Positions 12,040-59,960 of a stretch of DNA of 64,000 bases are shown one piece after another. This stretch comes from Fragilaria crotonensis (lineage: Eukaryota > Bacillariophyta > Fragilariophyceae > Fragilariales > Fragilariaceae), in assembly GCA_022925895.1 (NCBI GenBank), contig JAKSYS010000009.1, forward strand, positions 124,001 to 188,000, written 5' to 3'. A program made the position numbers and the translations under genes. The notes under the pieces were generated by a model that did not search any database, was not told the origin of the DNA, and saw only the letters and a program-made list of their open reading frames with translations. How positions within the stretch are numbered: position 1 is the stretch's first letter; every line of letters begins with the position of its first letter.

Positions 12040-14292
12040 ATGACAGGGCTTGCTGACAAGACCGTCCAAGAGGCGGCCATGTCGCTGACAGCCGCGAAGA
12101 AGATCGAAGAGACAGATCCTTTGCTAGAAGAAGAACGACTATCCGCAGATTTGGCCCAGTTTCTGTCGAATCCCTCTCTCAAGGCTGCCTTGGCGGATGG
12201 ATCTTTAGACTTAACATCATATTCGTCAACCGTTGAACAGGAGCTTCATGAGTTGGAGACTCAATGTATTGACGTGTATCGAGCGAAGAAAGATGAGATC
12301 AAGTCCTTGCGCGATGAACTCGAATCGTGTGATTCCGTTTTGGCAGCATTGCAAGAAATGTTGCTGGGGTTTCAAGCGGATCTCGGCGGTCTTTCTGGTG
12401 ATATTCGGAATTTACAAGACAAATCACGTTCCCTGGGTATTCAACTTAGGAATCGTAGGCATGCCGAAGGTGGTTTGAGAGACTTCCTCAATCATATCGT
12501 CATTGCTCCAAACCTCGTTCACACGATTTGTCGAGGACCGGTCAATGACAAATTCCTTCACTCCGTTCAAGAATTGAATAGCATTTACACAGACGTTCAC
12601 GACACGATACCTCGTGACTGGTCCTGCGGAATGGCGCCGTGTCGCACCGTCGCCGGTCGTGAGATGCAAACCCATGTACACAAGCTCCGTCTGGTGGCTG
12701 TCAGTCGCATCCGCGATTATTTCTTGGCACAAATGGCCATGTTGCGACGTCCACAGACCAATGTCCGAATGATTCAATTGCATGGCCTGTTGAAGTATGC
12801 AGAGTTGCAAGATTTTCTAGAGACAGCGTCGCCAGAAATCGCGTCGGAAATATACAAAGTTTATGTGGAATCTATGAGCAAGACACTATACGCTCTCTTC
12901 CGAACGTACCAGGCTCAGCTGCTGCAATTGGACGCCACGAAGACTGGAGCGACTCGTCAAGATGTCATTGCAATTGACGATGCAGCGCTTCGAGATGCCT
13001 TGACATCCAAAGCAAAGAAACGTGTGGACAGCTTCACCTTGGGGAATCGAGCAAATGAAGTGTTGGATGATGCCACGGCGCGGCCCATTCTAGCGCACGT
13101 GGCCCTGGCTGAGGACAAGAGCTATCCATACGAGATTCTTTTCAGATCTATCATGCTGCACTTGATGGATGCTGTTACCAATGAGTATGTCTTTTGTCGC
13201 CAGTTCTTCAAACGCGATGCCTTTCAACCTCTTTTCTCCCCAACGTTGGGTTTACTCCTTGAACAGACGGAAAACTACCTCTTTGGTTGTCACGATGCCT
13301 TGGCACTCTTGCTAATGATCAAGGTCACACACTCCCATCGACGCATATTGCATGCCCGGCACGTCGATTCGTTGGACTCATTTTTGGATTCCATCGCCAG
13401 TTTATTGTGGCCTCGGCTCAAGACTGTCATGGATTCGCATTTACGAAGTCTCAAGACCGCCAATGCTGCCAAATTGGGAGGCATTGATCTCCATCCACAC
13501 TATGTGTCACGTCGGTATGCGGAATTCGCCTGCTCGATTCTTACCATTCTGCATAAGGGCAACAAAGAAAGTAGTAAGGAAGCATACATATCTGCTCGAA
13601 AGCATCAAGACCAAGGCAGAAATGAGAAGAAAAATGACGCCGTTGAAACCCCGGAAAAGGCGCAACAAGCTACAGCATTGTCGTCTTCCAAACCAAAGTC
13701 TAATGCCGGTGACATGGTTCTTAACGACCTGGCGACTATCCAGGAGGAAATTGTCGCCTTGCTCGAACGCCTCAGCGACAAGCATTCGACAAACAAAAAG
13801 CGCATTGTCTTTTTGATCAATAACCTCGATCAGATTGTATGTATCTTTCAGGAGCGTCGAGTTGTTGGAAAAGAGTTCAACCGATTCGTTGAGTTGCTTA
13901 TGAAACAAAGAGAACTCTTCGTGGAGGAGGAGTTGTTAGCCAGTTTTTCGAAAATGATTGCCTTTGTTCAGCAGACTGAATTGCACATGTTGTCCAACCC
14001 TTCCAACGCGGATGTCAATCCGCAGGTCGTAGAGTCCTTAATTCGAGAGTTCTCTTCTGGATGGAAAGCCGCCATTGAGCAGATAAATCGCAACGTCTTG
14101 TCCTATTTTTCGAACTTTCGCAATGGGATGGAGATCCTCAAGCAAGTGCTCACTCAACTCTTGCTCTACTACACCCGATTCCAGGATGTCATTCGCAAGG
14201 TCTGGCGAAACAAGCCACCTGCTTTCTGCAGGGATCTCGTAAGCACGTCTGTGATTCTCGCCGAGATCAAAAAATATGCCCTTGCCATATGA
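12040..14292 (+). CDS. VPS52: Vps52-like subunit of the GARP/EARP tethering complex
   Basis: A 750-aa intronless protein. Vps52 is a CATCHR-type subunit of GARP, which tethers endosome-derived vesicles at the trans-Golgi network. Recognisable parts: an acidic N-terminus with a helical segment (EQELHELETQCIDVYRAKKDEI, residues ~66-88), the conserved stretch GDIRNLQDKSRSLGIQLRNR (~115-140) followed by GLRDFLNHIVIAPNLVHTI, which is the Vps52/Sac2 core, and YAELQDFLETASPEIASEIYKVYVESMSKTLYALFR (~260-295). The remainder is alpha-helical with the typical YEILFRSIMLHLMDAVTNEYVFCRQFF block (~370-398). A low-complexity charged insert (residues ~515-560) is a plausible lineage-specific loop. The length is in the family range. 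Confidence 0.85.
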   Translation: MTGLADKTVQEAAMSLTAAKKIEETDPLLEEERLSADLAQFLSNPSLKAALADGSLDLTSYSSTVEQELHELETQCIDVYRAKKDEIKSLRDELESCDSVLAALQEMLLGFQADLGGLSGDIRNLQDKSRSLGIQLRNRRHAEGGLRDFLNHIVIAPNLVHTICRGPVNDKFLHSVQELNSIYTDVHDTIPRDWSCGMAPCRTVAGREMQTHVHKLRLVAVSRIRDYFLAQMAMLRRPQTNVRMIQLHGLLKYAELQDFLETASPEIASEIYKVYVESMSKTLYALFRTYQAQLLQLDATKTGATRQDVIAIDDAALRDALTSKAKKRVDSFTLGNRANEVLDDATARPILAHVALAEDKSYPYEILFRSIMLHLMDAVTNEYVFCRQFFKRDAFQPLFSPTLGLLLEQTENYLFGCHDALALLLMIKVTHSHRRILHARHVDSLDSFLDSIASLLWPRLKTVMDSHLRSLKTANAAKLGGIDLHPHYVSRRYAEFACSILTILHKGNKESSKEAYISARKHQDQGRNEKKNDAVETPEKAQQATALSSSKPKSNAGDMVLNDLATIQEEIVALLERLSDKHSTNKKRIVFLINNLDQIVCIFQERRVVGKEFNRFVELLMKQRELFVEEELLASFSKMIAFVQQTELHMLSNPSNADVNPQVVESLIREFSSGWKAAIEQINRNVLSYFSNFRNGMEILKQVLTQLLLYYTRFQDVIRKVWRNKPPAFCRDLVSTSVILAEIKKYALAI

Positions 14293-21261: not shown

Positions 21262-21612
21262 TTCTTGTACTGTCTGGGATCTCGTACTACTGCTGCGTGG
21301 GATCTTGTACTACCGTGCCGTTTCTCGTACTCGTACTGTATGGGATCTCGTACTACTGCTGCATGGGATCTCGTACTACCGTGTCATTTCTTGTACTGTA
21401 TGGGATCTTGTACTACTGCTGCATGGGATCTTGTACTACCGTGCCGTTTCTCGTGCTCATACTGTATGGGATCTCGTACTACTGCTGCATGGGATCTTGT
21501 ACTACCGTGTCATTTCTTGTACTGTATGGGATCTTGTACTACCGCGTGGGATCTCGTACTACCGTGTCATTTCTTGTACTGTGTGGGATCTCGTACCGCG
21601 TGGAATCTCGTT
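21262..21612 (+). repeat. GGGATCTCGTAC minisatellite, array 1
   Basis: Repeats of TGGGATCT(C/T)GTACTAC, interspersed with CTGCTGCA and CGTGCCGTTTCTCGTACTG words, in a higher-order unit of about 60-100 bp. It lies upstream of the dioxygenase gene. All three frames stay open through it, giving spurious long reading frames. Confidence 0.8.
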
Positions 21613-23454: not shown

Positions 23455-23722
23455 TCCTGGGATCTCGTACCGCGTACCGCGTGGGATCTCGTACTACCGT
23501 GCCGTTTCTCGTACTGTATGTGCCTATGGGATCTCGTACTATCGCGTGGGATCTCATACCGCGTTGGATCTCATACAACACCGTTTCTCGTACTGCGTGG
23601 GATCGTATGGCGTGGGATCTCGTACTAGCAACCGCGTGGGATCTCGTACTGTGTGGGATCTCGTACAGCGTGGGATCTCGTACAATTGTACAGCGTGGGA
23701 TCTTGTACAGCGCGGGATCAAA
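23455..23722 (+). repeat. GGGATCTCGTAC minisatellite, array 2
   Basis: About a dozen GCGTGGGATCTCGTAC units in the spacer between the 3' ends of the dioxygenase and the JmjC-like gene. Unit and orientation are the same as array 1. Confidence 0.8.
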
Positions 23723-25509: not shown

Positions 25510-25735
25510 TCAGAGTGAGATACTGCGCTGTACGAGATCCCATGCGGTATGAGATCTCACACAGTACGAGATCCCATGTGGTACGAGATCCCACGCGGTG
25601 GTACGAGATCCCATACAGTACAAGAAACGGCACGGTGATACGAGATCCCACGCGGTAGTACGCGAGCCCACGAGGTACAAGATCCCACACAGTAAAAGAT
25701 CCAACGCGGTACGAGATCCCATCCCAGTACAATGT
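25510..25735 (-). repeat. GGGATCTCGTAC minisatellite, array 3 (inverted)
   Basis: Units read GTACGAGATCCCA(C/T) on the plus strand, so this array is in the opposite orientation to arrays 1 and 2. It lies between the HA gene and the 3' end of the transposase. Confidence 0.8.
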
Positions 25736-25878: not shown

Positions 25879-28800
25879 TCAACCTTTACCTCGTTTCTGC
25901 GGACTGAGAGATGGCCTCAGTCTTTTGTTCTTCCTTGACTTATCAACTTGAGGAAGACTTGCAAATTCATGTTGTGCTGTTGCAGCACTCTCCACACGAT
26001 TCCTCTGCTGGATAAAGCTTGACAACAAGCTCTCCAGGCCCCTTCTCAATTCAAGTGCCATAGCACCGCTCCCTTGTGCATACGTACTAACTTGTGTATA
26101 CAATGCCAAGTTGGAGGAGTATACACTTGTCCCCCCAACCAATGCAATACTGCTATCACTCTTGTCTTTCCCAGAAGATGCCGAAATGAACACTTCCTGG
26201 GAGCAGCCAGCAGTCATCACTGATATGGAATCTTGGGAAAGGGCATAAGTGTCCTGTTCATGAGTTCCTAGAGGAACATCATTAATTGGTTGCCCCCACT
26301 TTGAACCTGGTAACAATGCAGAAGTACAGTTCTGGTTGTGGGCGCGTAGAAACATGTCATGCAAGAGATTGTGATTGTTGTCCACTGTGGGCCCCTCCAA
26401 AGCAGAACTCAGAAGCCACAGTTCATCAATCTTCTCCCTACTTGAATAGGGACCACGTCGTTCTCCATCTCTTGCGCGGTCATAAAGGAAAGTCAACATG
26501 TCATGTTTGCCATGATAATAAAGATAATCCTTTCTCCACCTAGCCGATGCATGATATGCCGACAGTGTGCCAGAATCAAAGGAATGGCCATGGGGAGAAA
26601 TGATGGAAAAAATGTGACGACATGTAATCCCAAATCGACTGAAGTAACCACAACTGCACTCAAGATTGATGGCATTACGTAACACCATATTCTCTTCAGT
26701 TGATGACGCATACATGTGCTCCACCAGTCGAACCTCACGAACCCGAGAAAACTGAGGAGTGACTTTGTCAAACTTCGTAGAGGCAGAATTGGCATCACAT
26801 TCCTCCACGCCAGGTGAGGAATATCTCCTCTTGAGGAGGAAGGCGTCCGTAGAAATTTGTGTCACCAAGTAACAGAGGCGTGCATTGTATTGATGCGCAA
26901 GCAGTTTGGACCCATATTCAGTTAGTACGTCACCAACAATTTGTGGACGCATACTTTTGTAGTCAAGCGCAGAAGCTGCATCAACCTCCCTCCGGCTCAT
27001 CTGGCGTGATAAAATGGTAGAGAGAGCAACACAGGATCGATCTATACCATGGAACGGACAAGGACCCAAAGGATGTCTCTTGATTGTGCTTGACTCACTT
27101 TCCACATTCGAGGTGGTCCTCATGTTGAAGCAGCGGACATGCAATTTATTGGAAAATGAAATGCTCATCTTCCTTGGCGCAATGGACGTCATCACAAAAT
27201 TAGTCAAGGCCTCTGCCATCACATTCCCCATGGCAGAAGGGTCAACAACCTCAGCACTTCCAAGGAAGATGTACAAAAGCTTCAATGAGATGTCAAACTC
27301 ATCAGATGTTTCGGGATAGTCGGACAAAGAGTACATCCATTGCTGAACAGCTTCAAATTGTGCCTTACCCAAGGCACTGAGTCTGCCATCACTCAGGTGC
27401 GAATGTTTGAGGCCTCGATTTATCAAATGCCACATGCACAGCATATGCTTACTGTTCCGCCACGGACTACCACGGTCGCCAATAAGATCCACAAGGGGGG
27501 AATACATCTGAAGATCGCCATCAGTCAAAATAATTTGATTCCGCTCAACAGAGGTACTTCCATGGAGTTGCACAAATGCATCACGGAAGCACCAATCAAA
27601 AATCCAGCGGCATTGTGATGGTAGAAATGCCTGGAACACACGGACAATTCGGTTCTCAGAAGTCTTCGCTGTCATGACAAGCAAGGGCCGTTTCTCAGCA
27701 TTGGTTCCCATGGTAACATCGGCACACAGTGTTTCCGGAAACATACCAAAGATTCGCTGCTGCTGTTTTGATGCCCAAGCTGCACCAAGGAGCAGCTTTG
27801 TATTCCCACTAAGACCAAGCGCTTTTCTCACCGATTCAGCATAGGAAAGAGTTGAAGCATCAGTCTCACGTGAGCAATAATGATTGTGCTCAGAACTGGA
27901 TCCCTGTTCCTCCCAGTCCTGATTATAGTGAGAAGCCGGGTGGCTGTATTGTCGTGTACAAGAAGAATGTAATCAAGGCTTTCCTCATTGCGCAAGTAGT
28001 GCACAAGTCTTTCAGCTGGTGATTGACCTAAGTCCACTGCAGTACCGCCACCAGGACCGACCTGATTTCCTCGTGTGCCAGCACACCTCCTCAGCTGGTC
28101 AGAGGAAAGAGAGATGCCAGTTCGCTCCACAATCAGAGCCTGCACAATTGCAGGCTCTGAATTCAGTGAAATGCATTGCCTAGATAACTCAAGTTCCAAT
28201 TGCGGCACAGTGTGATACGACAATCGGACATCAGCAGGTTCCTTTTTGGTGACCTTCATGGGATTTACACCCTGTCCCATCCGCACAAAAGTACCAGCGT
28301 CCAGCAACGTTGTTGTTAAGGCCATCATTTGGTTCCCAATATAGTGAGAATGCAAATGGACATATTGACTCCTTGTTTGCTGCTGAGGGCGAATGCGTTT
28401 TGACGAACGACCGGAAGACTTGTACTGGTTGATGTTGTTGTCGTTGTTGTTGTCGTTATTATCATTGTCATTGTCGTTGTCATCAATCTTGTTCCTCAAA
28501 AGATCCTTCTTGTCGTCATGAGCTCGAGAGTGCTGACAAAAGAATCGCAGTTTATTCGATGCCTTCTCCCAACCTTTGGATGCCACTTTGAAACCTGCCT
28601 GGGCACATGCCACTGCAATAAATGGGATCACATGCTCTTTTCGGGATGAGGGACTGTTGGAATTAAAGCGACGAGGCAGATATTGACGAAGGTGCTTGCA
28701 ATTGTCATCCCGGTTGCTACGCATTCCGGTCCCAATGAAGTCAGCAAGATTAACAGTCCTGATGGACTCATCACCGTCGCCAACTTGAACTTCACTGTCA

Positions 28801-29842: not shown

Positions 29843-31294
29843 TTACCCGTTATCGTGTCTCGCGTTTCCAGTTTTCCGGGATATGCTTTCAATAATGCTC
29901 CTAGGTCCTGTCGTATCATTGGTGAGTTCCCAAATAATGACACCTCCACAGCCTGCCATCTTTGCGAACTCCATTTTCTCCGCGGCGGTACTTGGAGTTT
30001 CGTAGTAAATGTTGTGTTCATATGAGTAATTGCCTGAAATGCCCGTGAAACTTGGATGAGGCGTACTTCCATGGACCTTTATATTGCCATTGTTTGAATC
30101 GCTGCTTTCTTGCGGAAATGATACCATGATATCCTGGTATCGAAGCGTTTTGTATCCGGGTGGAATCTCCCCACTGAGGTCATCGGCAACTTTGGAGAAC
30201 GCAAAATCGTAGCCATACGTTGCCACACCCAGCAAAATCTTTTGGCGAGTCGTGATATTAGATCCGCGTCCTTGCCAATTGACGAAGTAAGGATTCGTCC
30301 AGTACCATAGAGACTCTTCGACACTTTGAATGGGATTGTTGGTACTACCACTACCTGGCCAATCACCGTGTTGTTCACTTTCGTAGACTTGCTGGTCTCG
30401 TATCACATGAAGGGCAGAAGGTGGGCCCACCGGTGATTGATTCCAAGATCCTGTTAAATCGTAGGTCATGATGCCAATCCAGTCCAATGAATCAATCATG
30501 TCCGGATCGTAATTGTTTCCATACCAAGACGTGGCGAAGACAGCTGACGAGATGATTTTCTGTGGCAGAAGTTTTCGCAATTGCTTGGCCAAAGCCGTCA
30601 AGCCCATTCCAGCTGGATGGGCGCCATCGTTCCGATGTCTACCACCCATATCCGCAGCATTGCCGCCGTCTTTGGAGGAACCCCACCAACATTCCAAATC
30701 CAAATCCACGCCATCCAAATCATTTTTGAGAACAAATTGACTGATAATGTCACCGGTTTGCTGGAGTAGATTGTTGTTATTGGCAGCTTGGCTGCCAATC
30801 TTTGTCATGAGGTCCAAAAACGCATTATCCGTCGCACCACCCACAGCCACCATCACTTTCACTCCCAAAGATTGCGTCGCCGATTTAACATTGACAAGAA
30901 CTTCTTGGACATCGTGAACAGTCTTGCCGTCGAATCGAGGACGGGTACTACTGTCAACAATGTTAGAGGATTCAAACATGAGAAAGGAAATAATCACATG
31001 GGTCAAACCGAGGTATTTGTTGGTATCCCCGTACGGAAAATTCTCTGCTTGGCGCCAAGTTGGCAAGTATCCCACTATTTTCATTCTGATTCCACCCTCA
31101 TCATCATCATTATGATGGGAACGACGAGAATCGTAGAGTTCCGCGTCCAGGGTCCATCCTGAGTCGGGTGTTCCGGGAGGTTCTCCCGATGGCCACCATT
31201 TCGCGAGAAACACATTGCCGCCATGTCGGACTTTGGATCCGGCTCTATACGAGTCGACGTCGCTGGCGTTCCATTCGGGTGGCAGTGGCATCAA
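29843..31294 (-). CDS. GH18 chitinase with N-terminal chitin-binding module
   Basis: A 483-aa reading. Residues ~6-48 (WNASDVDSYRAGSKVRHGGN..AKWWPSGEPPG) match a CBM5/12 chitin-binding module, with the exposed aromatic pair of AKWW. Residues ~71-475 form the GH18 TIM barrel: KIVGYLPTW (strand 1), VKVMVAVGG (strand 3), DGVDLDLE with the catalytic Glu201 (DxxDxDxE), MTYDLTGSW and GVIIWELTND at the last strand. It would hydrolyse chitin; beta-chitin is made by some diatoms. No signal peptide follows the 31294 methionine, so a leader exon upstream is likely; an acceptor-like ATAG lies just before it and a GTGAGT about 50 nt further up. The stop overlaps a GGTAAGT word. Confidence 0.85.
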   Translation of the reverse strand: MMPLPPEWNASDVDSYRAGSKVRHGGNVFLAKWWPSGEPPGTPDSGWTLDAELYDSRRSHHNDDDEGGIRMKIVGYLPTWRQAENFPYGDTNKYLGLTHVIISFLMFESSNIVDSSTRPRFDGKTVHDVQEVLVNVKSATQSLGVKVMVAVGGATDNAFLDLMTKIGSQAANNNNLLQQTGDIISQFVLKNDLDGVDLDLECWWGSSKDGGNAADMGGRHRNDGAHPAGMGLTALAKQLRKLLPQKIISSAVFATSWYGNNYDPDMIDSLDWIGIMTYDLTGSWNQSPVGPPSALHVIRDQQVYESEQHGDWPGSGSTNNPIQSVEESLWYWTNPYFVNWQGRGSNITTRQKILLGVATYGYDFAFSKVADDLSGEIPPGYKTLRYQDIMVSFPQESSDSNNGNIKVHGSTPHPSFTGISGNYSYEHNIYYETPSTAAEKMEFAKMAGCGGVIIWELTNDTTGPRSIIESISRKTGNARHDNG

Positions 31295-32006
31295 GTCTAT
31301 TGTATTAATAGATCTCGCTGATGTCGGTGATTTTGTGTCGCAGACTCACACGTTTAAACTAACCAACAACACAATCAAAAATTCTTAGAGCATCTTCTGA
31401 AGCAAATAAATGTAACAGTGACGAGGATGTTGAATACCGTAACTGTTTCATGTGTGGAATGTTTTCCAGTGCGGCGGAACGACAGTCCCAACCACAACGT
31501 GAGTTCTTTCTCGCGCAAGGCGATCCCGGTCTTGTCAGAGAAGATATATATATACAAGTAACGTTCCTGTTTTCTGAATTTCAAGTTACAGAACATTGCC
31601 TTTACCAACGAATCTCAATACTCTCTTAGTACGGTACCGTAGTAAAGGGCTACTCTTCGCCTGTCGCCTGTGTGTAAAAATACCGTACGCAGTATCAGTA
31701 GTCAGTAGAAGGCAGTACTCCCGTACGCCACTTCAGTTAATTGTCGGCTTGATCAGGGGACACGGTTTGTGAGTTTGTGATTTTGTGAGTTTGTGACTTG
31801 TGACAATGAACTCGTGACACGCGAGTATCGCGTAACAATTCGATCATCGCTCATGACTCATGGCGCTTTAATCGACAGCTCGAACTGACATAAGGGAACC
31901 AAGGAAAGGGAAACCCTCCAAGGAGGAGGTCGCAAACCAATGATTTGCATCGTTCATAAGACTGAAGAATCCCTCACTTTTTCAGATCTTCTCCTACAAC
32001 CACGTT
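31295..32006. other. Spacer with dispersed repeat
   Basis: Probably holds the unresolved 5' end of the chitinase gene, then a copy (about 31688-31760) of the repeat seen at 17407-17480, then a short GTGAGTTTGTGATTTTGTGAG simple repeat (31765-31800), then the 5' flank of the fusion gene. No other gene. Confidence 0.35.
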
Positions 32007-33254
32007 ATGCGAGGACTTTTTCAGACACGGCGCCAACAGCGCCACTCATCGTCAAATCGTGGTGGCAATAATCCCATCCGCATTTTCGTCAAGATATTTG
32101 CCGGCAAGACCATCGCTCTTGATGTTTATGCCACTGACTCCATCGAGAATATCATGACCAAGATCCAGGACGAGGAAGGACTTCCACCGGATCCGCAGTG
32201 TCTGATTTTTGAAGGAAAGCAGCTCGAGGACGGCCGCACCCTCATGTCTTACGGCATCAAGGAGGACTCCAAATTACATATGTTACTACGATTGCGGAGA
32301 ATGATTAGCACATTTCCATCCAACGACACCTCCGACACTTTGGTACGCTTTCTAATGCTGGCTGACGATGAAAGAGAGGTAGCTGCTGTTCCAATGGATG
32401 AACTTCGCGCTGTGGCAGAGGAGGAGAACGTGAACCCATGCAGTACCTTTGCTTTCAACCCGGATTGCAGGATTCTTTGCGTCGAACAGTGTCGGTTTTT
32501 GTGTTCATTTCTTGACTTTGTATGGACTAGCTTTGCCGTTGATAACGCCAGTGACCGAGTTGATATGCGCCTAGAGATTGACGACGACACATTTGTACAA
32601 TTGTTGAGGTGCCTCGACCCTGTTGTTTCTTCAATCCAGCAATCCAGCGCTCTTGTTCGGAACTTGCACAACCAGTATCGCAAAGTGTCCGGAGGTAAGA
32701 GCGGTCCATCCAAACTTGCACTACGAATGACATGTGGACCCACAAATGCGTGTATCAACTTCCATTGTGACGGGGACTACGCTACGAGTACGTGCGAAAT
32801 AGCATTGAATTGTCCATCCGAATACAAGGGTGGCCGTTTGTGTTTCTTTGTCAATGACACTCTCCATGTCTTGGAACGCCCTGTCGGATCCATCACTCAG
32901 CACCCTGCAGGAGTGCTTCATGGCGTTACTGCACTTACGGAAGGCACGCGAAAGAGCTTGTTCGTTGTCGATCAAACCAATAGTCTCGGAGAAGGGGCGG
33001 TTATTAAAGTGCGCAGCGATCACGCTCAACTGTTCTTGGCGCTTCAAGTCTTCTTGGCACAGCAGGGAGCTCGGCCGAGTGCGAACGACATGAATACTAT
33101 GCCGACATGTGTCGTGTGTTGTGAGCGTGCAGCGGACCATGTGGTTTTGCCTTGTGGACACATCTGTCTTTGTTCTGTTTGTGAATCGGGGATAATCACG
33201 AGCTGTCCGATTTGCCGGTTGGATTTTCAACGCAAACAGCGTGTGTTCATGTAA
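32007..33254 (+). CDS. Ubiquitin-like / 2OG-Fe(II) oxygenase / RING finger fusion protein
   Basis: A single-exon 415-aa protein with three parts. (1) Residues ~24-96 are ubiquitin-like ([42 protein letters not shown]); the end is RRMI rather than a di-glycine, so it is probably not processed or conjugated. (2) Residues ~235-325 read as a prolyl-4-hydroxylase-type 2OG-Fe(II) domain: NFHCDGDYA (H253, D255), YKGGRLCFF, then [20 protein letters not shown] (distal His305, Arg315). (3) Residues 368-404 are a C3HC4-type RING ([20 protein letters not shown]), as in E3 ubiquitin ligases. I infer an E3 whose activity or substrate choice is tied to 2OG and oxygen. All catalytic residues of both domains appear to be present. 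The start is the first ATG after a CACGTT leader; the frame is intact. Confidence 0.85.
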
Positions 33255-34190: not shown

Positions 34191-36771
34191 TGGCGTCAAA
34201 TGCGCATCCCGAACAGGTTCGCATTCAGCAAGACCATGAACCTCAAGCGGAGGACGCAGATAATAATCCTGCCCAACGAGACATGCCTGCGGCCCATCCG
34301 CTGCAAGATCAGCAAGTTGTTTCAGACGATGGTCTTGAACGGCATCCTCACCCAGGAGATTTTTTCGTCCATGCGCCACCATTTCTCCCCCATCAACAAC
34401 AAGCCATGGCGATGGCACAGTACTATGAAGCTAGAATGAGAGACCATGCTGCGGCGTACGCTTCTGCTGCAGCTGGTGCGGCTTAGGCGGCTGCCCAGAT
34501 TGCTGTATCTGCCCAGATGCCACCGACGCTACCTCCTCCCATTGTCTATCCCCCGACCTATCCTTCCCATCACCAAAACTTTTCCTCGTATACGAATTAT
34601 CCGCATGCATACGAATACTTCAATCGTCCCAGTGGATGTCACAGCTCAGAGTTTGCTCCAGAGGAACGTCCAGTCAAGAGACACCATCGAATGCCTCTCG
34701 GCACCACCAACGAACAACAGGAACGTCGCGGACGTCGCCGGCAACGCGTCGATTTCAGTTCGTCATCTGACGGGGGGCGATTCAATCTCAAATCGCAGCG
34801 TCAGAATAACAATACGAACCACCATTGCAAGAAGCGACGCGAAAAACTCAATCTCGTGGGAAAGACAGGAGTTTCGGCCCTGCACGAATGGTGCGTGCAT
34901 TGCAAAAAACAGCCGCCGAACTTTGTATTGTTGCCGAGTCGGCCGGATTTCTTTTGCTTTGCGGCATATGTAGATGATTTAGAATGGAGTCGTGGTCGGG
35001 GCGCTACCAAAGCGAGTGCGAAACAAGATGCAGCTCGGAAAGCCTTGCAAGCACTTGTACCTGGAGTTATCTTTGACGATAGTGGCTTAGTAACCGACAT
35101 GACTGCAAACGAAGCCATTGAAGATCTGCCCAATCTCGCTGAGCGATTGGCAATTGACGCCACCAAGAAACGTCGCTGTGACGTCTATCCTGGGACGAGC
35201 ACAACTACTGACGACGATGGGGAAGATGAGAATGCCTACTATGCCAATCGTGGCGCATCCGTGTGCTCCGCTCTGTTGCACGCAATGTGGCAGATCAACG
35301 ATGATATTCCCGAGCCTCCATCCTACTCATATGATGTTCCTTCCAGCAGCACCAATAGCATCAAAGATGGTTCTCGGCCATCGTCCTTTTCCTGTACTGC
35401 CACCATATGTCTGCGAGTGAGGGAGGCAACGCAAGGTTCAGAATACGAAGCGAAGGAGAGTAATGCAGATGAGGACGAGCTCGATACCAAGCCCAAAGCA
35501 AAGCGAAAAGGTTGTGTTGATAACGAATCCTCAGATCCCACGCCTTCTCGGAACAATGCCATCACGGGCGACCTTTCCTCGACGGTTACCACAAAGGTCA
35601 AAGTGTTGACGGGAGTTGGGATCGGCGCTACAAAGCGAGAAGCTCGGCACGTTGCCTCGGCCAAATTGTTGTCCCTGTTGTTCCCTGACTGCGAAGGCAT
35701 GGTGGAGGTCAAAGCATGCGCTGAAGCTGCGCGCGAAAGATATGCTGCAAGTAAGGCCTTGAAACAGCAAACGAAACGATTTGGCGGCCCGTCCAAGCAA
35801 GTGCGCCACGGTGGGAGTTTTTTGTGAGCAATGGAAATCGTTGGTTGGCTAAACAGTCGGATCCAAGCGTGCCACAAACAGTGGTCAGCATGATACGTTC
35901 TCTCACTGGGCAAGGAGTGAAGTTTCCATCGATTAGCTCGAGCGCCCTTGTCGATGAAGACGAAGTGAGCGTTGAATCATTATCACTTTCGGAAACGAAG
36001 TCGACCTCAAAATCAGATGTCTATTGTAAATCTCGTGAGGTTGAAGCGAAGCGCGAAGCACGAGCGTTGAGTCGACAGCAGCAGCTTGTGAAGATGGTCG
36101 ACAACGCCTTACAAACGCTTAACGAATTTGACGAGGTGGGTCGCATTTTGCCTCATGCAACTAATTATGACGATGTCGGGAGGACAGTCCTTCGACGAGC
36201 AGACGTCGGAGATGCGAGATTTGTCAATAAATTACTGCAGAAGAAGGGACCAAATGCGATGAGCAATACGTCGCCGATGCAACCCATTCTTTCCGGAGGG
36301 TCATCGAGTCTGTTTTGGGGTCCAGCGTCTGTGACGTTGTTGCTTTGTCGGGCGATTGCATCGTACGACGAGCCTCCACTCGGTTGCGCCATCCTTACGT
36401 TCGGGTTCACGATCCCCAAGGGAAGGGTGCTTCGGGTGGCAGATATTGGGAGCGAACGACATTTACCACGGGAACGTTTCGTCGAATGCTTGGAGCAGTT
36501 CGCGGTTAACATGAGATGTCAACTGGAAAGTGAGCTGTCTGAAGCTTGTGAAGCAAGTGGAGATCTGCAAACACTTACAGTACCACAGCTGACAACGATC
36601 GTCGAATCATTCCTCAAGCGAAAGGATTCCCTTCGTGACGAGTCGGGCTCTAAACTTCAGTCAGTCAAGGAAGAAGACCCGGACGTGGAAGACGATGTCA
36701 AGGATCCGGGACGGCTCAACTTGGCGGAGAGCGTGAAGGATAAGCCGAGCAAGAGGAGCCGTATCGATTAA
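34191..36771 (+). CDS. Double-stranded RNA-binding protein with two dsRBD-like regions
   Basis: 34191-34486 encodes a Gln/Pro/His-rich N-terminus ending at an in-frame TAG inside an Ala run. The same frame is open again straight after the TAG and the next ATG (34517) starts MPPTLPPPIVYPP, so the first part is either a uORF or the gene has one nonsense codon. 34880-35070 is a dsRBD (ALHEWCVHCKKQPPNF..FCFAAYV..GRGATKASAKQDAARKAL). A second dsRBD-like block, split by an acidic insert, ends GVGIGATKREARHVASAKLL (about 35590-35690). A one-base change at a T6 run (35818-35823) leads to a further 315 residues with LGCAILTFGFTIPKGRVLRVADIGSERHLP, and a basic nuclear-type C-terminus (KDKPSKRSRID). A role in dsRNA processing is inferred. 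Its 3' half and its 5' region are each duplicated in this window. Confidence 0.65.
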
Positions 36772-36779: not shown

Positions 36780-37293
36780 ATGCCTTATTCACCCTTGTCA
36801 TTACTCGCTTGTGGCATTGAATCAAAAATTTCGTGTAGTCAAGTTTTCAAGCTTGCCACAAACAGTGTTCAGCATGCATGCGTTCTCTCTTTGGGTAGGA
36901 GTGATGTTTCCATCGAATAGCACTAGCGCCCTGGTGGATTAAGACTAAGTGAGCGTTGAATCATTGTCGCTCTCGGAAACGAAAGTGACGTCAAAGCCAT
37001 ATGCCTGTTGTAGTTCTCGTGTGGTTGAAGCGAAGCAAGAAGCACGAGTATTGAGTCGGCAGCAGCAGCTGTGAGGAGGGTCGACAACGCCTTGCAAATA
37101 CTTAACGAATTTGACGAGCTAGGTTGCATTTTGCCTCATGCAACTAATTCTGACAATGTTGAGAGGACAGCTCATCTACAAGCAGACAACGTAGATGCTA
37201 GATTTATCAATAAGTCACTGCACAAAAAGGGCCCCCATGCGGATGCGATGAGTCATACGTCGCCGATGCAAGCAATTCTTTCCGGAGGGTCAT
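36780..37293 (+). pseudogene. Decayed tandem copy: SEC24 3' tail fused to inner part of the dsRNA-binding gene
   Basis: 36780-36845 resembles the last codons of SEC24 at 38421-38490 (CTTATTCACCC..GTGTAGTCAAGTT). From about 36847 the sequence resumes inside the dsRNA-binding gene, copying about 35865-36311 (GCCACAAACAGTG..ATGCAAGCAATTCTTTCCGG) with small indels and stops. This is the junction expected of a tandem duplication whose unit ran from inside the dsRNA-binding gene into the end of SEC24. Non-functional. Confidence 0.75.
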
Positions 37294-37301
37294 CAGGCAG
37301 C

Positions 37302-37967
37302 TTACTCCTCCTTCTTCAAAGGTTTGTCATGCTTCTTTCCTCCATTTATTAGCATGCTGACAATCTTGGTGTACCAGAAACAGTTGAGTCCGTAGAATGC
37401 CAGCAACGAGAGCATAATCCAGTGAGTCCATTCGATACCATGTTTTCGAACTGGATTGATGAGCGCGACAGGAATCAACACCACTCGACACAGAGTAAAT
37501 GTCAAGGCGAAGAGCACAAAATGGAGCGGCTTCCTTGTCTTGCGAGATATAAACAGCAACGGAGTGCTCAACTCACATTGAGCGGCGCGAGAGTTCATTC
37601 GCAGTGTCCTCAGCATGGGAGTAGTGTAATTTGCAACCCCCAATGTGATGCAGAGAACGGCATGTACCGAGTAGGGACCGTCAAGTCTGCAAATGCAATT
37701 AATGAGGTCGACTATGAAATAGGACAGTGACCACATTATGCCGATGCGTTCATTAAAAATTGCATCGTCGTCGAAGTACAGTGATAACCATCCGATGATA
37801 ATGATGAGGTTGTGTAATTGATGCACAAACGTCCATTCGACCCATTTCGGTCGAGGCGTTTTCGATGGCAGAATGGTGTACACAAGCGTGGCAATCCAAA
37901 TCGTCAAGGGAGCGAGGAACGGAAGCCACGAGTCTTCTGAATTATACGCTTTCCACAGGGAATCCAT
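37302..37967 (-). CDS. TLC-domain (TRAM/LAG1/CLN8) membrane protein
   Basis: A 221-aa protein with about six to seven membrane segments (WLPFLAPLTIWIATLVYTIL, LIIIIGWLSLYF, WSLSYFIVDLI, AVLCITLGVANY, LHFVLFALTFTLCRVVLI, WIMLSLLAFYGLNCFWY). The segment order, the VHQLHNLIIII stretch and the SYFIVDLINCI segment match the TLC/TMEM56-type family, whose members bind or make sphingolipid-type lipids at the ER. The LAG1-type HH pair is not seen, so it is closer to the non-catalytic TLC proteins. It ends in a KKHDKPLKKEE tail that may act as an ER-retrieval signal. The gene lies between two remnants of the duplicated dsRNA-binding gene, where it replaces about 290 bp. The frame is intact and intronless. 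Confidence 0.65.
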   Translation of the reverse strand: MDSLWKAYNSEDSWLPFLAPLTIWIATLVYTILPSKTPRPKWVEWTFVHQLHNLIIIIGWLSLYFDDDAIFNERIGIMWSLSYFIVDLINCICRLDGPYSVHAVLCITLGVANYTTPMLRTLRMNSRAAQCELSTPLLFISRKTRKPLHFVLFALTFTLCRVVLIPVALINPVRKHGIEWTHWIMLSLLAFYGLNCFWYTKIVSMLINGGKKHDKPLKKEE

Positions 37968-38231: not shown

Positions 38232-38414
38232 CAGGGACTTTTGGTCGAATCATTCCTCAAGCAAAAGGATTCCATTCGTGACGAGTCGGGCTCTAAACTT
38301 CAGTCAGTCAAGGAAGGGGAACCGGACGTGGAAGAAGATGCCAAGGATTCGGGTCGGCTCAACTTGGCAGAGTGCGTGAAGGACAAGCCGAGCAAGAGGA
38401 GCTGCATCGATTAA
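38232..38414 (+). pseudogene. 3' remnant of the duplicated dsRNA-binding gene
   Basis: 38232-38414 copies about 36600-36771, the last codons and stop of the dsRNA-binding gene (GTCGAATCATTCCTCAAGC..AAGCCGAGCAAGAGGAGC). It reaches the stop codon region of SEC24 on the other strand, as the source copy does. Confidence 0.8.
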
Positions 38415-41400
38415 TCAATAGACCCCTTATTCACCCTGCTCATCACTCGCTTGTGGCATTCGATCAGAAAGTTTGTGTAGTCAAGTTCTCCACCGATCTG
38501 ATCATCAACCATCAAGTTCATAACCTTCTCCTCAAATGCATCCTTGTGTGAAGCATGACCTTGCGCTACGATCAGGGGGGCGAACGTTGGGCGTAACATC
38601 GATTCGGAGCCAGGACCGATGGACGAGAACGTTCTCATTTGCCACACGAGTCGCTCCACTTGTTGTCCCAAATCGGACGATGTGGATAGTGTGCAACCCA
38701 AAACTGATGTCTCCAACAATTCGTTCTTGACGTCAACTTTCACATCGCGCCCAACGAAGACGTAAATATGCAGACCATCATCGACCAAGTATACTTGGTC
38801 GTCCTCGATGCAAGCGATGCTCGGGTGTGTCGTTTTAGGCATCAAAACATACTCATGATGAGCGGCATGGAGGTGCTCCGATTGAGGCGTTTCTGTCATT
38901 TCTGGCATGTACCATTCTCCAGCATCGTCTAGGTTTGCAAGAGGGAAGATATTTGGATGGACCATGAGCATGGCCATCGCTGGGTGGACAGAGGATCCAT
39001 AAAACAAGGCGTACGCTCGCTCGTCAGCGGTCGGGTTCGCATGATCAGCACGAAGTCCTGATCGAGCCAAAGGTAAACTGGAACGTAGCATGGGGCTTTT
39101 GAGCAGGGCCATGCAAAATAAGGGAAGCATGGTAAGTTGGGAAGGGAGCATTAGTTGCCCGCGTGGTTCATTCCACGCTTTTGTATTCAATCGATATCCA
39201 GCCAGTGCGTTGGTCATCTCCTCCATCAGATTACTCCGTGCTGCTTCCAATGCATTTTCCTCCGATGGATTCCATGCGTGAGTTATCGCATGCCGGGTCC
39301 AAAAGGCAGCCAGACACCCGAAGTCTATGCCTCGATAGACATCTGCTGCAACATTGCCAATGCGTAGAGCAAGAGTAGACACTCGGACACGTCGTTCCCC
39401 CCGCATAGTCGTGTACAAAAGCGCAGATTGAACAAAGCAGAATTTATCTTTCTTGGGCAGCCCGCCGACTCGATGCTCTATTTCCACTGCGATGCAACTA
39501 TCCTGTCCCACTGCGGATAGCTCTAATTCAGGCGACGCTGTCAGACTTTCAATGGAAACGCCTGCTTCGGTACTAAGATAGCGTTTGACCTGTAACCCGG
39601 TGGAGCAGCGAACCTTGAAAACAGCATCCCTTCCGTAAAATGAAACAATTGGACGCAACAATTCCTCTTGAAAGGGCTCTTTCCAACTTCCCGATGTCCT
39701 TATCCATTTGAGCTTGCCACACGTGATCCGGCAGAGCTGTCCAAGTGTAGCCACATCCATAAATGCCATGGGTTTGGGCAAAGTGTGCAATATTACATCC
39801 AGTACAACTCGATTCTTTGCACATTTGGTACCCAAATGCCTGTAAAACGCGGCGGCGTCTTCATCCATGGGTTCGGGACATTTGTTCTTTCTAAGTTGCA
39901 GCGGAAGAAATAGTGGATGCTCAGTCTCGGCCGACTTGTACAATGCCAAATTGTTGCGTTCTCGATCACGAATGGCGCCCGCTCCAAAATTTGGACGTCG
40001 CCACGATATCCACGTTCCTCGCCCGCCTGTTTCAGCCAGGGCCTCGGCCAAAAAGGCCAATGCCGCACCACAGGAGCTGGCGTGTCCCATGGTCCCATAT
40101 GGAGTTCGACAATCCAGCTGTGTCTGAAGGAATGGTTGCCAGGAATCCCACAGAGACGACATGAACGTATTCCACTGATCCATTTGTGTTTCGACGGAAA
40201 AGGTCCATTCGTCCAAGGGCAGCGGTGAAAAGGGTTTTTCTGTCACGTCGGACATGACCAGAAATCCATCGCAACTCCCATCCTTTGGATTCAATCTTGG
40301 TACATAAATACCATAGACGGACACGAGTACAATACCTATCCGACGTTTCCCACAATCGACTTCTGGCAATGACCTTCCGACTTGAGCAATCAATTCCAAA
40401 TAGTCCTTTAGATGCGGACACGTTGCATCAACTGCATACAATGTATGGGATGCAACTGGTGCAGACCTGGTAATGTAAGGACCATCCACAGCGTATTCGA
40501 CTGTTCCTTTGTCGCAATAGGCCGGTGGGGGGCCGCGAGCCCCGTAAAAATTGCAGTGATCGTTCCAGAAACTCGATACGTATGCTTGGCAGTCGCTGCA
40601 TCGAGGTGGAATCGTGGATTCGTAAGGCAGGGGAATACGCATAGGATCGCTCCAGTTCTGAGATGGTTCTCCGTTTGGTAAGCGTCGAGGTCGGGGTGGG
40701 ACATCGTGACTAACGGTAGCCATAGGTGTGCAGAGAAGGGCCATGGATAGATTTCCTGATTTTCTCTTCACAGTCTTGTCGAGTGGTACGACCGAGAGAG
40801 TGGATCTTAGGAGTTGGGGAGCAGCATTACCGTCATCTTGCGTTAGGAATCTCGAATCTGGTGGTGGAGGTGGACGAATTTCGGAAAACAGAGCTGCTTT
40901 GGGATGGTAGATAGGAATCGGTTGGTCGTCCTGCGGACGAGTGAACAAGGGAGGACGAGGAACTTGAGACGGGTCAATTTTTCGGCGCTGTTGTTGTTCA
41001 AAATCTTTTTGTTGCTGGTATTGTTTCTGAGTCAATAATTCCGGTGCAGTATGCTGTTGCTGATAGGGTGGAGGTGGAGGATGTGTGTGTTGAGGCATTG
41101 GAGGCGTTAGATTGGAGTGAGCAGGTGTGGGGAGAGGAGGGTGGGGTTGCGCGTATGCATTGGCAAGCAGTGGAGGAGGGTTACTGCTAACGGAAACAGA
41201 AGGTGGATGCTTGTTTGGTGGGAGGTGAAGTGGGTGAGGTAGCGATGATGATTGCTGTGAGAGATTCGTCGGCATTTGCGTCAGGTTGTTCGGCAGAGGT
41301 GGAGGCAATCCAACGGGTGGAGGAGGATACTGTGCGTATATACGTCCATTTCCATGACCTTGGGGCGGAGGAAGAGGTGGATCATAATGAATAGGAGCTG

Positions 41401-41628
41401 GCGCTGCAGTTGGCAATGGCCTTTGACTTGAAAAAGGTGGAGGGGGGGCAACGTGTTGTATCCGACTCTACTTGTTGTCGTTTGAGACGACCCTTGCGGT
41501 GGCCATGATTGTTGTTGACTATTTCTCGGCGGTGGTTGGAATTGTTGCTGACTAAACCCACCAGGAGGCGGTGGAGGAGGAGGCGGCGGCAGAGGCGGAG
41601 GTGGAGGCGGAGGCGGAGGAAACGACAT
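38411..41628 (-). CDS. SEC24: SEC24-like COPII coat subunit
   Basis: About 1072 aa. SEC24 binds cargo in the COPII coat that buds from the ER. The N-terminus is a long Pro/Gln-rich tail beginning MSFPPPPPPPP at 41628; a one-base change at a C7 run (G7 on +, 41442-41448) joins it to the main frame. Then follow: RIPLPYESTIPPRCSDCQAY (zinc finger start), DHCNFYG (second zinc knuckle, see findings), VEYAVDGPYITR, the vWA-type trunk (TLYAVDATCPHL..IGIVLVSVYGIYVPRL), a helical domain (ANPTADERAYALFYGSSVHPAMAMLMVHPNIF) and the gelsolin-like end (DDQVYLVDDGLHIYVFVGRDV), finishing in DYTNFLIECHKRVM. Length and order are those of SEC24. The start was chosen as the first ATG giving the proline tail. Confidence 0.88.
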
Positions 41629-42039: not shown

Positions 42040-42179
42040 CACTCCTGCAATCCTGTGATCCATCATCGTGGGTCGTAGGATTGACGTTCATGATCTCGTC
42101 GCGGAACTTTATAAATTGCATACCTTGCAAGGGTTTAGTAAAGAAGTCACCAACCATCTCGTTAGTAGGACAATACTCA

Positions 42180-43630
42180 ATCTTGACCTCTCCAGAGGCC
42201 ACCCGATCCTTGATAAAGAAGTAGCGAATATTGATATGTCGAGTTCGCTTTCCACTCGACGCCTTCCCCGTTTTCAGCCAATAGGATCGTACTCTTATTG
42301 TCTTGATAGACAATGGACTCTTTAACTGCGTATCCCTGGGCCTCCAAGAAGTATCGGGTCCATAGGGCTTGTGGCAGAATGTCGTTCACCCCAACCAGTT
42401 CGGCCTCAGTCGAACTTTTCGTATTAATCTTTTGTCGAGTGGAAGTGCCGTAGATCGCCCCCTTGCCCAGTGTCATCACGCCACCTGTGTGGCTTCGCAT
42501 GTCAGGGTGGACCGCAAACGAGGCGTCAACCCACCATTTAACGACGTTGCATCCGTCAGCCTCCAACGTCAATGGCATCTTGGCGGTGCCTCGCAGATAC
42601 ATCATAGTCCTGCCCAACTTCTTGTAATCGTCCACGTCCGGCTCTTTCACGCGAGTGCACAGGAACGCGACTGCTGTCTGTATATCTGGACGGGCACGCT
42701 TGCATAGAAACAGAAGCTTAGCCACATTGTGATGGAAGAAATCGGACAGCTCGGTGTTCAGCTTTTCCGCATCATCATTAACATCAAACAGATGCGATGA
42801 TGCCGGTGACCTGACCGTTCCAGACATGTCGGCAGGTAGTTCCGTTATCATATTCTCGATGTAATCGATCATCGTAAACTTAACCTTGCCCTTAACGCTG
42901 AAGTCAATCGTCATACCAAGGTATTCGTGTACCTTTCCTCTCGAAATTGTGAGCGGGGCTTCCTTTCCAAATTCGGACTTAAGCAGCTCGATCACGTCGT
43001 CAACAACTTTCGGGTCGACATGGGAGATCTTAAGATCGTCCACATGCCACAAAATGGTACATTGCTTACCATTGATCATTTTGTTGGCAACACAACTGTC
43101 GTAAGGATTCAGAACAAATCCCCATTTAACCAGCTGCTTGCTCAGCTTCTTCCAAAACAGAAATGCGCCCGTGTGCCGTATAATGCCTTCTCCAGCTCCA
43201 CATAGAGCACCATCCGTCCGTTTTCCATCTGAATGTACTTTCGATACATTTTGGGATCGATCCGACCATCAGCTCAGCCATCTTCCCTTCCAGTTTCATG
43301 TGGACTGTTCTTTCGCCCTCCATCCCGACCTGCATGAACGCAGCTGGGAGGTCGACCACCCCCACATCTCTCTCTTCCTCGGCGTCAATTGTGCATGATA
43401 GCATGACTGACTCAGTTGCGACCGTTGGTGAACTCGCCTCTTCCTTGGTGGTGTATGATCGCTGTTTTCTGCCGTCTGCACAGCCTCTTCCTTTTACCGT
43501 GCCATCTCGTTTCTGCTTCAGGAACATTAGGTATTGCAGTGCCGCCTCGCGTTCTTCGTCGGTCATCTCGTCTTTGCCCCTTGGCCTTATGACCTCGCGG
43601 TCGTATAGTTGCATTAGTTCTTTGAGCACG
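42180..43630 (-). mobile_element. copia element part: reverse transcriptase and RNase H region
   Basis: Carries the copia-type RT/RNase H region: YGLYQ-like RT core with HVDDLK, the DYKKLGRTMMYL and SHTGGVMTLGKGAIY segments before RNase H, and the end with SKSTEAELVGVND and NKSTILL. Family assignment is by these motifs and by the order within the element. Confidence 0.85.
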
Positions 43631-46009: not shown

Positions 46010-47116
46010 CACCGTCGCACTCGTTTGCGTAGTGTCCTTTCTTTTTTGCAGCGGTGACACGTTATGTGCTCCTTGCTTCTGGGTTTGGCCTTTTTGTCAG
46101 CTTTCTCGCTGTCGGCGTTCACGAAGGCAATTTCCCCCTTCGCCTCCCACCTCGCGCTGTCCGAGTCGAGGATTGTTCTGGTAGTTGGAGAGGCGATGAA
46201 ATGCATCGGCCCTGCTGTTGGGATAGCGGGCGTTACCCTCATTGTAATCGTTGTTGATCCCTTCGATGTACTTGCCGAAACGGGCACGATCGCACGTCAA
46301 CATAAACGCAACTCCCAGGATCCTGTCCCTGACTTCGGCCTTCATAGCACCGAGCTCGGCAGGGGTCATCGCGGCCTTGTCTCTTCCGTTTAGAACATAC
46401 CGTTCCATCCCGACGTCGTCATCGATGTTGCCGCCAGTATGTTCGAGCACATCAACGAGATTGTTGAAAACGGTGAGATGCTCCTTCAGAGTAGTGCTTC
46501 CGTTTTGCATCAGGTTGAAATATCGTTTCTTTGCTTCGTGGATGGCCCTTCCTGGATAATTCTGGCTTTGGAAGGCATACGCAATGTTCTTGATAAGTAT
46601 GAGCAGTTTCAGGCCATCGCCGCTTCGCCAGATCTCGTCCCAGCCAGCGCTCGATTCCAGCTTCTGCTGCATCATGTCGGTGCATTGGCCCCATACAAGG
46701 GCGTATAGCTTCTTGATGTTTTCGTTGAAGCCCGCCATCTGTTTTCCGACCATTGTGACTGCGTCTCCCCACAATTTCGTCTGACCAGCAGTTGCTGTTG
46801 GAGGTAAGTCGTCTGGTAGGAAGAACGTTGGCGCCTCAAGAGTGTCGATAGCGAGACGAATGTCGCCACCATGCTTGAAAGTCCTACCGCAATAAGCGGA
46901 TAACTCCTTCTTGGTTCTGACGAACGTATCTGCCATTTTAGATTCAGAACAATCAAAAATAGCTCCGTTCAGCTCGTCGCATTTTCCTTCAAATTTCTTC
47001 GACGCGACACGATGACCCTTGTTGAAGTTGTAGCCTCTCTTTTTGGCTTCACCTTCTTCCTTGTCCTTCTGTCCTGCATCACTGTTTCGCTCGGTCCTTT
47101 CCTTGGCCTCTGCCAT
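46010..47116 (-). mobile_element. copia element part: gag region
   Basis: A gag-like helical protein begins at 47116 (MAEAKERTERNS) and a zinc-knuckle-like CHRC word lies towards its end, just before the protease. This is the usual copia position. Confidence 0.75.
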
Positions 47117-47796: not shown

Positions 47797-48798
47797 TCAC
47801 ACCGACTTTGATCCCTCTTCTATAAGAGATCTAATCACATCCTGTTGGCGGAGACATTCGTCCAACTTGGCCTGCTTGCCTTGTTTTTCAAGGTTGTGAC
47901 CGAATGACTCATCAGGTCCGCGCCCAACACTATCGTTGACTTGCATATCCAGTTTCGGTTTAGCACCCTCGCAGTGATTCCGCGTCTCACGTTCCATGTG
48001 TTCCTGCAAGAGACGTACAACATCAAATTGCGAACGACCGCGAGCCACATCAAGAGCTGTCCTGCCATACAAAAATCCCTTTTTATCCCTGATATTGACG
48101 TCAACCCCTCTGTGATTCAACAAGGCACGAACAACAGCTAAATGACCCTTCCCGCTTGCTTGGAAGAGAGCTGTGTAACCAAAGCTATCTGTGGCATTTA
48201 CTTCCGTCCCTTTGTGATTCAATAACTCACGAACCACGTCCAAATGACCCGAGCAACTTGCTTGGATGAGAGCTGTGGAACCAGAGTTATCTGTGGCATT
48301 TACTTCCGTCCCTTTGTGATTCAATAACTCACGAACCACGTGCAAATGATCCTCAACGCTTGCAATCATTAGAGCTGTGCTGCCATTGTAACACTTGATA
48401 TTGACATCCACCCTCTCGTGATTCAACAAAGCGCGGACCATTTCCACATGGCCATTATTGATTGCACGGATGAGAGGTGTTCCGCCATTCCCATCCCTGA
48501 TATTCACATTCAACCCCTCGTGATTCAACAAAGCACGGACCATTTCCACATGGCCATTCTTGATTGCACCGAAAAGAGCGGAACGGTTCTGACGACTCTG
48601 GATATTCGCATTCACCCCCTCGACTTTCAATAACGCACGAACCACTTCCAAATGGCCATTATAGCTTGCCAAGATGAGAGCAGTGTCGCCAAAAAAGTCG
48701 CTTTTGGCATTCACATTAGCCCCTTTTTGCAAGAGTTCAAGAACCGCGTCAAGATTCCCATCTCCTGCATTCTGAATCAATTCTAAGTGCAAACTCAT
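47797..48798 (-). CDS. Ankyrin-repeat protein
   Basis: A 333-aa protein from the ATG at 48798 (MSLHLELIQNAGDGNLDAVLELLQKGANVN); an in-frame upstream start at 48888 would add a non-ankyrin leader. It has about seven to eight ankyrin repeats of 33-34 residues (G-x-T-A-L-I-x-A-S-x-x-G-H-L-x-V-V-R-x-L-L-N), then a charged C-terminal tail (HMERETRNHCEGAKPKLDMQV) that ends in a coiled-coil-like stretch. Neighbouring repeats are nearly identical at DNA level, so the array expanded recently. It is a protein-interaction scaffold of unknown target. Intronless and intact. Confidence 0.8.
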   Translation of the reverse strand: MSLHLELIQNAGDGNLDAVLELLQKGANVNAKSDFFGDTALILASYNGHLEVVRALLKVEGVNANIQSRQNRSALFGAIKNGHVEMVRALLNHEGLNVNIRDGNGGTPLIRAINNGHVEMVRALLNHERVDVNIKCYNGSTALMIASVEDHLHVVRELLNHKGTEVNATDNSGSTALIQASCSGHLDVVRELLNHKGTEVNATDSFGYTALFQASGKGHLAVVRALLNHRGVDVNIRDKKGFLYGRTALDVARGRSQFDVVRLLQEHMERETRNHCEGAKPKLDMQVNDSVGRGPDESFGHNLEKQGKQAKLDECLRQQDVIRSLIEEGSKSV

Positions 48799-48888
48799 AC
48801 TCGAGTACTGGATTATCCACGTATTTGCGTTTTGTGTGCATTTGTGCACCGTTTGCAATGAAAATCGAGTCGTTCGGCATATTCCCAA

Positions 48889-59691: not shown

Positions 59692-59960
59692 CGTTGGAGA
59701 GTTTTTCTGTGTATTTATAGGCACATTCATTGCTCCACGGTTACGTTTTGTCTATGACTCCAAAATGTGAGCATCGTCATAGAAGACATATTAAATGACT
59801 AGGGGGTTATGGAGAGAGTCACAATGTCACAATGCCTATGCCTACGATTTGGACAAATCTACGACATATATCGTCATAGTCAACACAACTTGCCATGACC
59901 ATCACGAAATGAACACGATGCTTGCAATTGGCATATTTTCCATACGAGGGCGATTCGACC
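59692..59960. promoter_or_regulatory. Shared promoter region of two divergent GT90 genes
   Basis: About 270 bp between the start codons of divergent paralogues, so it must hold both promoters. No TATA box or other known element can be singled out with confidence; an in-frame upstream ATG for the minus gene is at 59730. Confidence 0.4.

Follow-up and report, generated by a model that had tools for sequence, protein, structure and literature searches.

Oxygenases dependent on 2OG are tied to ubiquitin ligases in several described systems. In the pairs PHD2 with VHL and PhyA with Skp1 (Dictyostelium, Toxoplasma), the oxygenase is of the same fold superfamily as the enzyme described below and the partners are separate polypeptides. 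KDM2A/B of animals combine a JmjC domain with an F-box. The ubiquitin ligase itself can be the substrate, PHD-type enzymes having been reported to modify the SCF subunit Skp1 in Dictyostelium, Toxoplasma and the oomycete Pythium (PMC7864055). A 2OG-oxygenase fold and a RING E3 share one chain in JMJ24 and OsJMJ715, plant proteins of KDM3 type with a JmjC domain, in which E3 activity was found and H3K9 demethylase activity was not; in OsJMJ715 one 2OG-binding residue is replaced (PMC8657654). Algae provide a further kind of fusion, in which a zinc RING finger shares a single frame of 145-273 aa with one ubiquitin unit or two (Guillardia theta, Bigelowiella natans); the words 'oxygenase' and 'hydroxylase' are absent from the main text of that report (PMC6332867).

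Two other families bear on the locus through its parts. The IAPs (BIRC7, cIAP1/2, XIAP) have a C3HC4 RING at the extreme C-terminus with an Arg-x-Phe tail. In cIAP1 the linchpin R606 directly follows C605, and R606, R614 and F616 are described as contacting donor ubiquitin or E2, the tail residues R614 and F616 touching donor ubiquitin in trans and F616H being defective; the helix that precedes the RING takes part in IAP dimerisation (PMC6349121). XIAP is reported to have Tyr at the linchpin position (PMC12326332). The PKHD/PiuC (YbiX) enzymes and the phage oxygenases of phrog_61 have in common an H-x-D...H...R motif, a fold and a conserved stretch around GG, and in the loci compared below they are encoded in separate frames with no match to the UBL or the RING.

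Here we describe a 415-aa protein in which a ubiquitin-like domain (UBL), an oxygenase and a RING follow one another. Its oxygenase has the motif, the fold and the GG stretch of the PKHD/PiuC and phage enzymes, at a domain identity of ∼18-28%. Unlike PHD2/VHL and PhyA/Skp1 it is one chain, and it is closer to PKHD/PiuC. Its RING shares the C-terminal position and tail of the IAPs and, as in cIAP1, has a linchpin Arg, but it is preceded by the oxygenase and the UBL instead of BIR. JMJ24 and OsJMJ715 differ from it in being of the JmjC class, in length (the OsJMJ715 ORF of 3172 bp is longer) and in the RING, which in OsJMJ715 lies at the N-terminal side, whereas here it is C-terminal; no UBL is mentioned for them in the accessible portion of PMC8657654. 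A protein combining UBL, P4H/PKHD-type oxygenase and RING was not found in the open-licence literature, among the matches listed, by title and opening of the abstract. The combination is therefore best read as new, a novelty that is softened because plant JmjC-RING E3s and algal ubiquitin-RING fusions are already known.

Results

One frame encodes three domains

The window, by which we mean the whole 64-kb stretch of DNA that was analysed, contains a frame of 415 codons that runs from ATG to stop without an internal stop (Table 1). Its start is bounded by the nearest upstream in-frame stop at 31941-31943, 22 codons 5' of the ATG. When the entire window was shuffled 20 times by mononucleotide, stop-free runs reached 252 codons at most. 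No second copy of the gene was seen within the window, where all other tblastn matches had E ≥ 3. A sequence-only reading of the DNA had proposed a fusion of three domains on this polypeptide, and domain searches bear it out: the UBL and the RING score above Pfam cut-offs, and the oxygenase is recognised through PHROG and, below cut-off, through NCBIfam. Three domains with their catalytic and zinc residues and a predicted jelly-roll lie in one frame. The IAP-type tail, the linchpin Arg and the missing diglycine of the UBL, described below, go beyond that reading.

Table 1. Features of the locus and neighbouring genes, in window coordinates.
Feature	Coordinates	Strand	Remarks
Complete gene, UBL - 2OG-Fe(II) oxygenase - IAP-type RING	32007..33254	+	415 aa, no intron needed
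Arg/Ser-rich N-terminal extension, residues 1-23	32007..32075	+	No domain in Pfam
Ubiquitin-like domain, residues 24-97	32076..32297	+	Pfam, pairwise alignment
2OG-Fe(II) oxygenase domain, approx. residues 145-325	32439..32981	+	Predicted jelly-roll strands 237-322
Predicted iron ligands H253-x-D255	32763..32771	+	H, D in 60/60 viral relatives aligned
Predicted iron ligand H305	32919..32921	+	H in 60/60 viral relatives aligned
Predicted 2OG-binding R315	32949..32951	+	R in 60/60 viral relatives aligned
Predicted helix before RING, residues 340-352	33024..33062	+	Model helix H240-252 of the 101-359 construct, low confidence
RING C3HC4: C368, C371, C383, H385, C389, C392, C400, C403	33108..33215	+	
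IAP-type C-terminal tail: linchpin R404, R412, F414	33216..33251	+	Ungapped vs BIRC7
Vps52	12040-14292		
GH18 chitinase frame	29843-31294	-	CBM5/12 match below cut-off
dsRNA-binding protein gene	34517-35827		
Sec23/24	38411-41416	-	

A ubiquitin-like domain without diglycine

The first domain, predicted from the letters alone to be ubiquitin-like, matches Pfam ubiquitin (PF00240) over residues 26-97 with E 1.3e-22 and is identical to human ubiquitin at 46/74 residues in a pairwise alignment, which points to a ubiquitin fold. I44 and H68 of ubiquitin are kept as I67 and H91, L8 and V70 are changed conservatively to F31 and L93, and K6, K11, K29 and K48 are all retained. The domain ends in LRLRRM, the diglycine of ubiquitin being replaced by R98-M99, and for lack of that diglycine it should escape cleavage and conjugation. 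It is thus probably an embedded domain, neither cleavable nor conjugatable. Its matches in the PDB include a ubiquitin-RNF165 chain (7r70), which we infer to be an engineered fusion; RNF165 is presumably Ark2C.

A 2OG-Fe(II) oxygenase between UBL and RING

Pfam left the oxygenase unmatched at E ≤ 10, whether the whole or the trimmed sequence was scanned. The PHROG family phrog_61, '2OG-Fe(II) oxygenase', matched residues 251-318 (E 1.9e-6), and four NCBIfam PKHD models matched residues 263-323 (E 3.2e-5 to 3.7e-4), none of them reaching its curated cut-off. Around the motif, the oxygenase can be aligned with four phage proteins. A profile built from three of these and the query recovered at least 66 relatives from viral contigs, and 60 of these ORFs, 59 of them distinct in sequence (two are identical), were used for an alignment of residue columns after removal of those whose frame stops short of the end of the match (L069, L012, L036, L025) or is open at the contig start (L022, L006). 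H253, D255, H305 and R315, the residues that had been named as the catalytic set, stand exactly at the positions given, and their columns hold H, D, H and R in every one of the aligned relatives. G275, G276, P300 and G313 are invariant in the same alignment, and the four catalytic positions are also invariant in a second alignment (A4) of 54 rows, comprising 53 of the at least 66 viral relatives and the query. Columns were used instead of a triad pattern of fixed spacing, which matched 37/66 viral ORFs, since loop lengths vary. Against the HMM of the relatives the oxygenase part scored E 1e-11, compared with E 83 for the best of 200 shuffles, a value that is favourable by construction because the relatives were picked with a profile containing the query and confirmed against the query. 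The PHROG and NCBIfam matches are independent of that profile.

From the single sequence, AlphaFold2 yielded nothing usable (mean pLDDT 34.7). A construct of residues 101-359, modelled with an alignment of 53 phage-type relatives, gave a mean pLDDT of 65.5, with both ends poorly predicted and a core (residues 261-320) of block-mean pLDDT 90-94. Ten strands are predicted between residues 237 and 322, the iron triad is present, and the core is confidently predicted as a jelly-roll, the double-stranded beta-helix of the P4H/PKHD type of the oxygenase superfamily. In Foldseek searches of the PDB, PiuC/PKHD structures came first (PiuC 9qn4, E 2.7e-9), followed by the prolyl hydroxylase of P. putida (6e-7) and then PHD2 (2e-6); TM by query length was a modest 0.40-0.47 in the best 12 rows, with a large rmsd; both are perhaps due to the disordered ends of the model. 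Searched against viral models, it had 2OG oxygenases of phages and giant viruses as the named hits close to the top.

Sequence comparison also put PKHD/PiuC first. The oxygenase alone, searched against PDB sequences at E ≤ 10, found four PKHD/PiuC entries, weakly (E 0.05-0.09), plus a single thioredoxin; EGLN1 stayed unmatched at this threshold. With a profile to which relatives had been added, itself mostly viral, PKHD/PiuC ranked first (9e-22), ahead of bacterial and algal P4Hs (2e-11 to 6e-7) and EGLN1 (2.4e-5), so that EGLN is not the closest sequence match. We therefore assign the middle domain to the 2OG-Fe(II) oxygenases; its predicted site is intact, and HIF PHDs are more distant from it than PKHD/PiuC. 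The label 'prolyl-hydroxylase-type, sensor-type oxygenase' given to it earlier holds as to oxygenase and goes too far as to prolyl or sensor type. Neither prolyl specificity nor oxygen sensing is supported, for the nearest matches are PKHD-like and Pfam finds no hydroxyproline reader.

A RING of IAP type at the C-terminus

The predicted C-terminal RING is confirmed by Pfam (PF13920, residues 367-408, E 4.6e-10; score 39.6 bits, cut-off 27), and all eight C3HC4 zinc ligands are present. Its best matches among PDB sequences are BIRC7 (4auq, E 1.3e-7), BIRC3 and BIRC2, in alignments that extend to the final residue of the frame or the one before it. The linchpin Arg and the Arg/Phe tail of IAPs are both found: R404, R412 and F414 follow the last zinc Cys at +1, +9 and +11, the spacing of R606, R614 and F616 in cIAP1. 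The helix predicted with low confidence at residues 340-352 occupies the position of the dimerisation helix of IAP RINGs. From these cIAP1 positions the RING is predicted to be an active, dimeric E3. Pfam scans of the protein found no BIR domain. To judge by its sequence, the RING is of IAP type and the protein is not an IAP.

Viral and prokaryotic relatives have the oxygenase in a frame of its own

Searches for the same architecture covered viral and prokaryotic sequences and have no bearing on algae. With close peptide matches required, single-sequence searches with the whole protein found no relative in viral contigs or prokaryote genome contigs, and neither residues ∼232 to the end (oxygenase core and RING) nor the UBL found one in viral contigs. 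A profile search of prokaryote genome contigs returned 43 oxygenases, every one in a separate frame (166-282 aa, 43/43), as were the viral ones (152-371 aa, 66/66 of the at least 66 found, a few frames being cut). Within the few kilobases at most around each match, the RING pattern was absent from 113/113 oxygenase loci, and in all 113 neither the UBL nor the RING was matched by tblastn at E ≤ 0.1. When residues 101-359 were compared with phages by tblastn, none of 103 records reached 80% coverage, and E was 0.02 at best among the best 25 of the 103, a remote similarity. A separate tblastn against plasmids gave 18 records, again with 80% coverage in none: 16 match at 262-324 and are PKHD-type or Fe2+-dependent dioxygenases where annotated, one is a ubiquitin-family protein of Ruminococcus albus (22-107, E 1e-18), and the remaining one is an Ig-like protein.

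Genomic surroundings

The surroundings are eukaryotic in content, with Vps52, Sec23/24, a GH18 chitinase, a dsRNA-binding protein and transposon genes. The chitinase frame adjoins the 415-aa gene on the opposite strand. Next to the dsRNA-binding gene, the frames 35824-36771 (+) and 37071-37352 (+) are 68% identical over residues 89-155 and 1-69, respectively (E 1e-27); the second looks like a decayed partial tandem duplicate of the first.

Elsewhere in the window, units resembling GGGATCTCGTAC, with one mismatch allowed, form clusters at 21276-21585 and 23459-23697 (forward) and at 25530-25709 (reverse). These hold 20 forward and 7 inverted copies, and 2 more forward copies lie outside them; the inverted cluster adjoins a MULE-type transposase frame at 25879-27831 (-), and the clusters could be subterminal repeats of a DNA transposon. 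Frames 42177-43079 (-) and 46097-47116 (-) have weak RVT_2 reverse-transcriptase and gag matches, below Pfam cut-offs, and are possible retrotransposon remains. The gene of an ankyrin-repeat protein, 47797-48888 (-), contains 102-base tandem repeats in its DNA, which suggests a recent expansion of repeat units. Matches to GT90 glycosyltransferases occur at 58230-59261 (-) and 59922-61445 (+), adjacent and on opposite strands.

Discussion

We lean towards a single-chain RING E3 that engages its substrate through a catalytically competent Fe(II)/2OG oxygenase of the PKHD/P4H superfamily. In such a protein the IAP-like RING would homodimerise, and E2~ubiquitin would be activated by the linchpin R404 and, in trans, by R412/F414, while the middle oxygenase would bind and hydroxylate a target, presumably a protein and not a small molecule, in a reaction dependent on 2OG, Fe and O2, and would hold the bound target for ubiquitylation. 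Non-covalent (backside or regulatory) ubiquitin on E2 or RING is reported to raise transfer for cIAP1 and Ark2C and the activity of RING/UbcH5B (PMC6349121, PMC8897509). The UBL, which has no diglycine but keeps I44 and H68 with conservative changes at L8 and V70, could make a built-in regulatory contact of this backside type to E2; alternatively, it could serve to dock the protein at the proteasome or at ubiquitin receptors. Ligase and oxygenase activity would both be expected from knowledge of the two families, and we infer the protein substrate, the coupling of both activities, the role of the UBL and any sensing of O2. Against this reading weigh the failure to find the same architecture in viral and prokaryotic contigs, the remote similarity of the oxygenase to its relatives, whose loci contain neither of the other two parts, and the modest TM-scores and poorly predicted ends of the model. 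Since the catalytic residues of both enzyme parts are in place, one and the same molecule may hydroxylate a target and tag it for destruction. The fullest form of this scheme strikes us as unlikely: a single-chain switch in which a protein hydroxylated by the oxygenase is then ubiquitylated by the attached dimeric RING, the UBL serves as a built-in E2-activating ubiquitin, and 2OG, iron or O2 sets degradation without a VHL-like reader.

Of the other explanations, the one that survives best, though we consider it rather unlikely, is that the RING mainly ubiquitylates its own chain or dimer partner and the UBL delivers the oxygenase to the proteasome, so that an otherwise ordinary enzyme limits its own amount. 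RING E3s can autoubiquitylate, as reported for the RING fusion OsJMJ715 (PMC8657654), and a UBL without diglycine fits such a role, but no feature of the sequence is specific to self-limitation or sets it apart from the reading we prefer. Distinctly unlikely is a hydroxylation gate, whereby only the hydroxylated target (or the hydroxylated protein itself) would be ubiquitylated and O2, iron or 2OG would set stability. Both predicted catalytic sites look intact in one chain, and the reported action of PHD-type enzymes on Skp1 in protists (PMC7864055) offers a precedent. Against this, the nearest matches of the oxygenase are PKHD/PiuC, not HIF PHDs, and Pfam scans of the protein found neither a VHL-like nor any other hydroxyproline-reading domain. 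A switch resembling that of HIF PHD and VHL, which had been suggested for this gene, is not supported, because it needs a reader of the hydroxyl mark and Pfam finds none.

Very improbable, in our judgement, is a protein that is simply an E3, with an oxygenase fold that binds and no longer catalyses, on the pattern of JMJ24/OsJMJ715, whose reported E3 activity is not accompanied by H3K9 demethylase activity (PMC8657654). Against this, H253, D255, H305 and R315 are retained together with G275, G276, P300 and G313, unlike in OsJMJ715 with its reported replacement of a 2OG-binding residue. That adjacent genes have run together, or that a decayed gene is open by chance, is barely conceivable despite the transposable-element genes in the window, given the single gap-free frame with known domains at both ends, a stop that coincides with the end of the matched IAP RINGs, and zinc and catalytic residues that are kept.

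The single-chain ligase with an oxygenase as its substrate-engaging module, which we prefer, is small (415 aa) and amenable to standard in vitro E1/E2 and 2OG assays. Its oxygenase site is apparently intact, unlike that of the plant JmjC-RING proteins compared, as far as these are described in PMC8657654. With its own UBL, the protein may be a natural counterpart of the ubiquitin-RING chain (7r70) used to study regulatory ubiquitin. Should its predicted activities hold, protein hydroxylation and ubiquitin transfer would be united in one molecule, and nature would offer a minimal equivalent of the PHD-VHL and PhyA-SCF arrangements.
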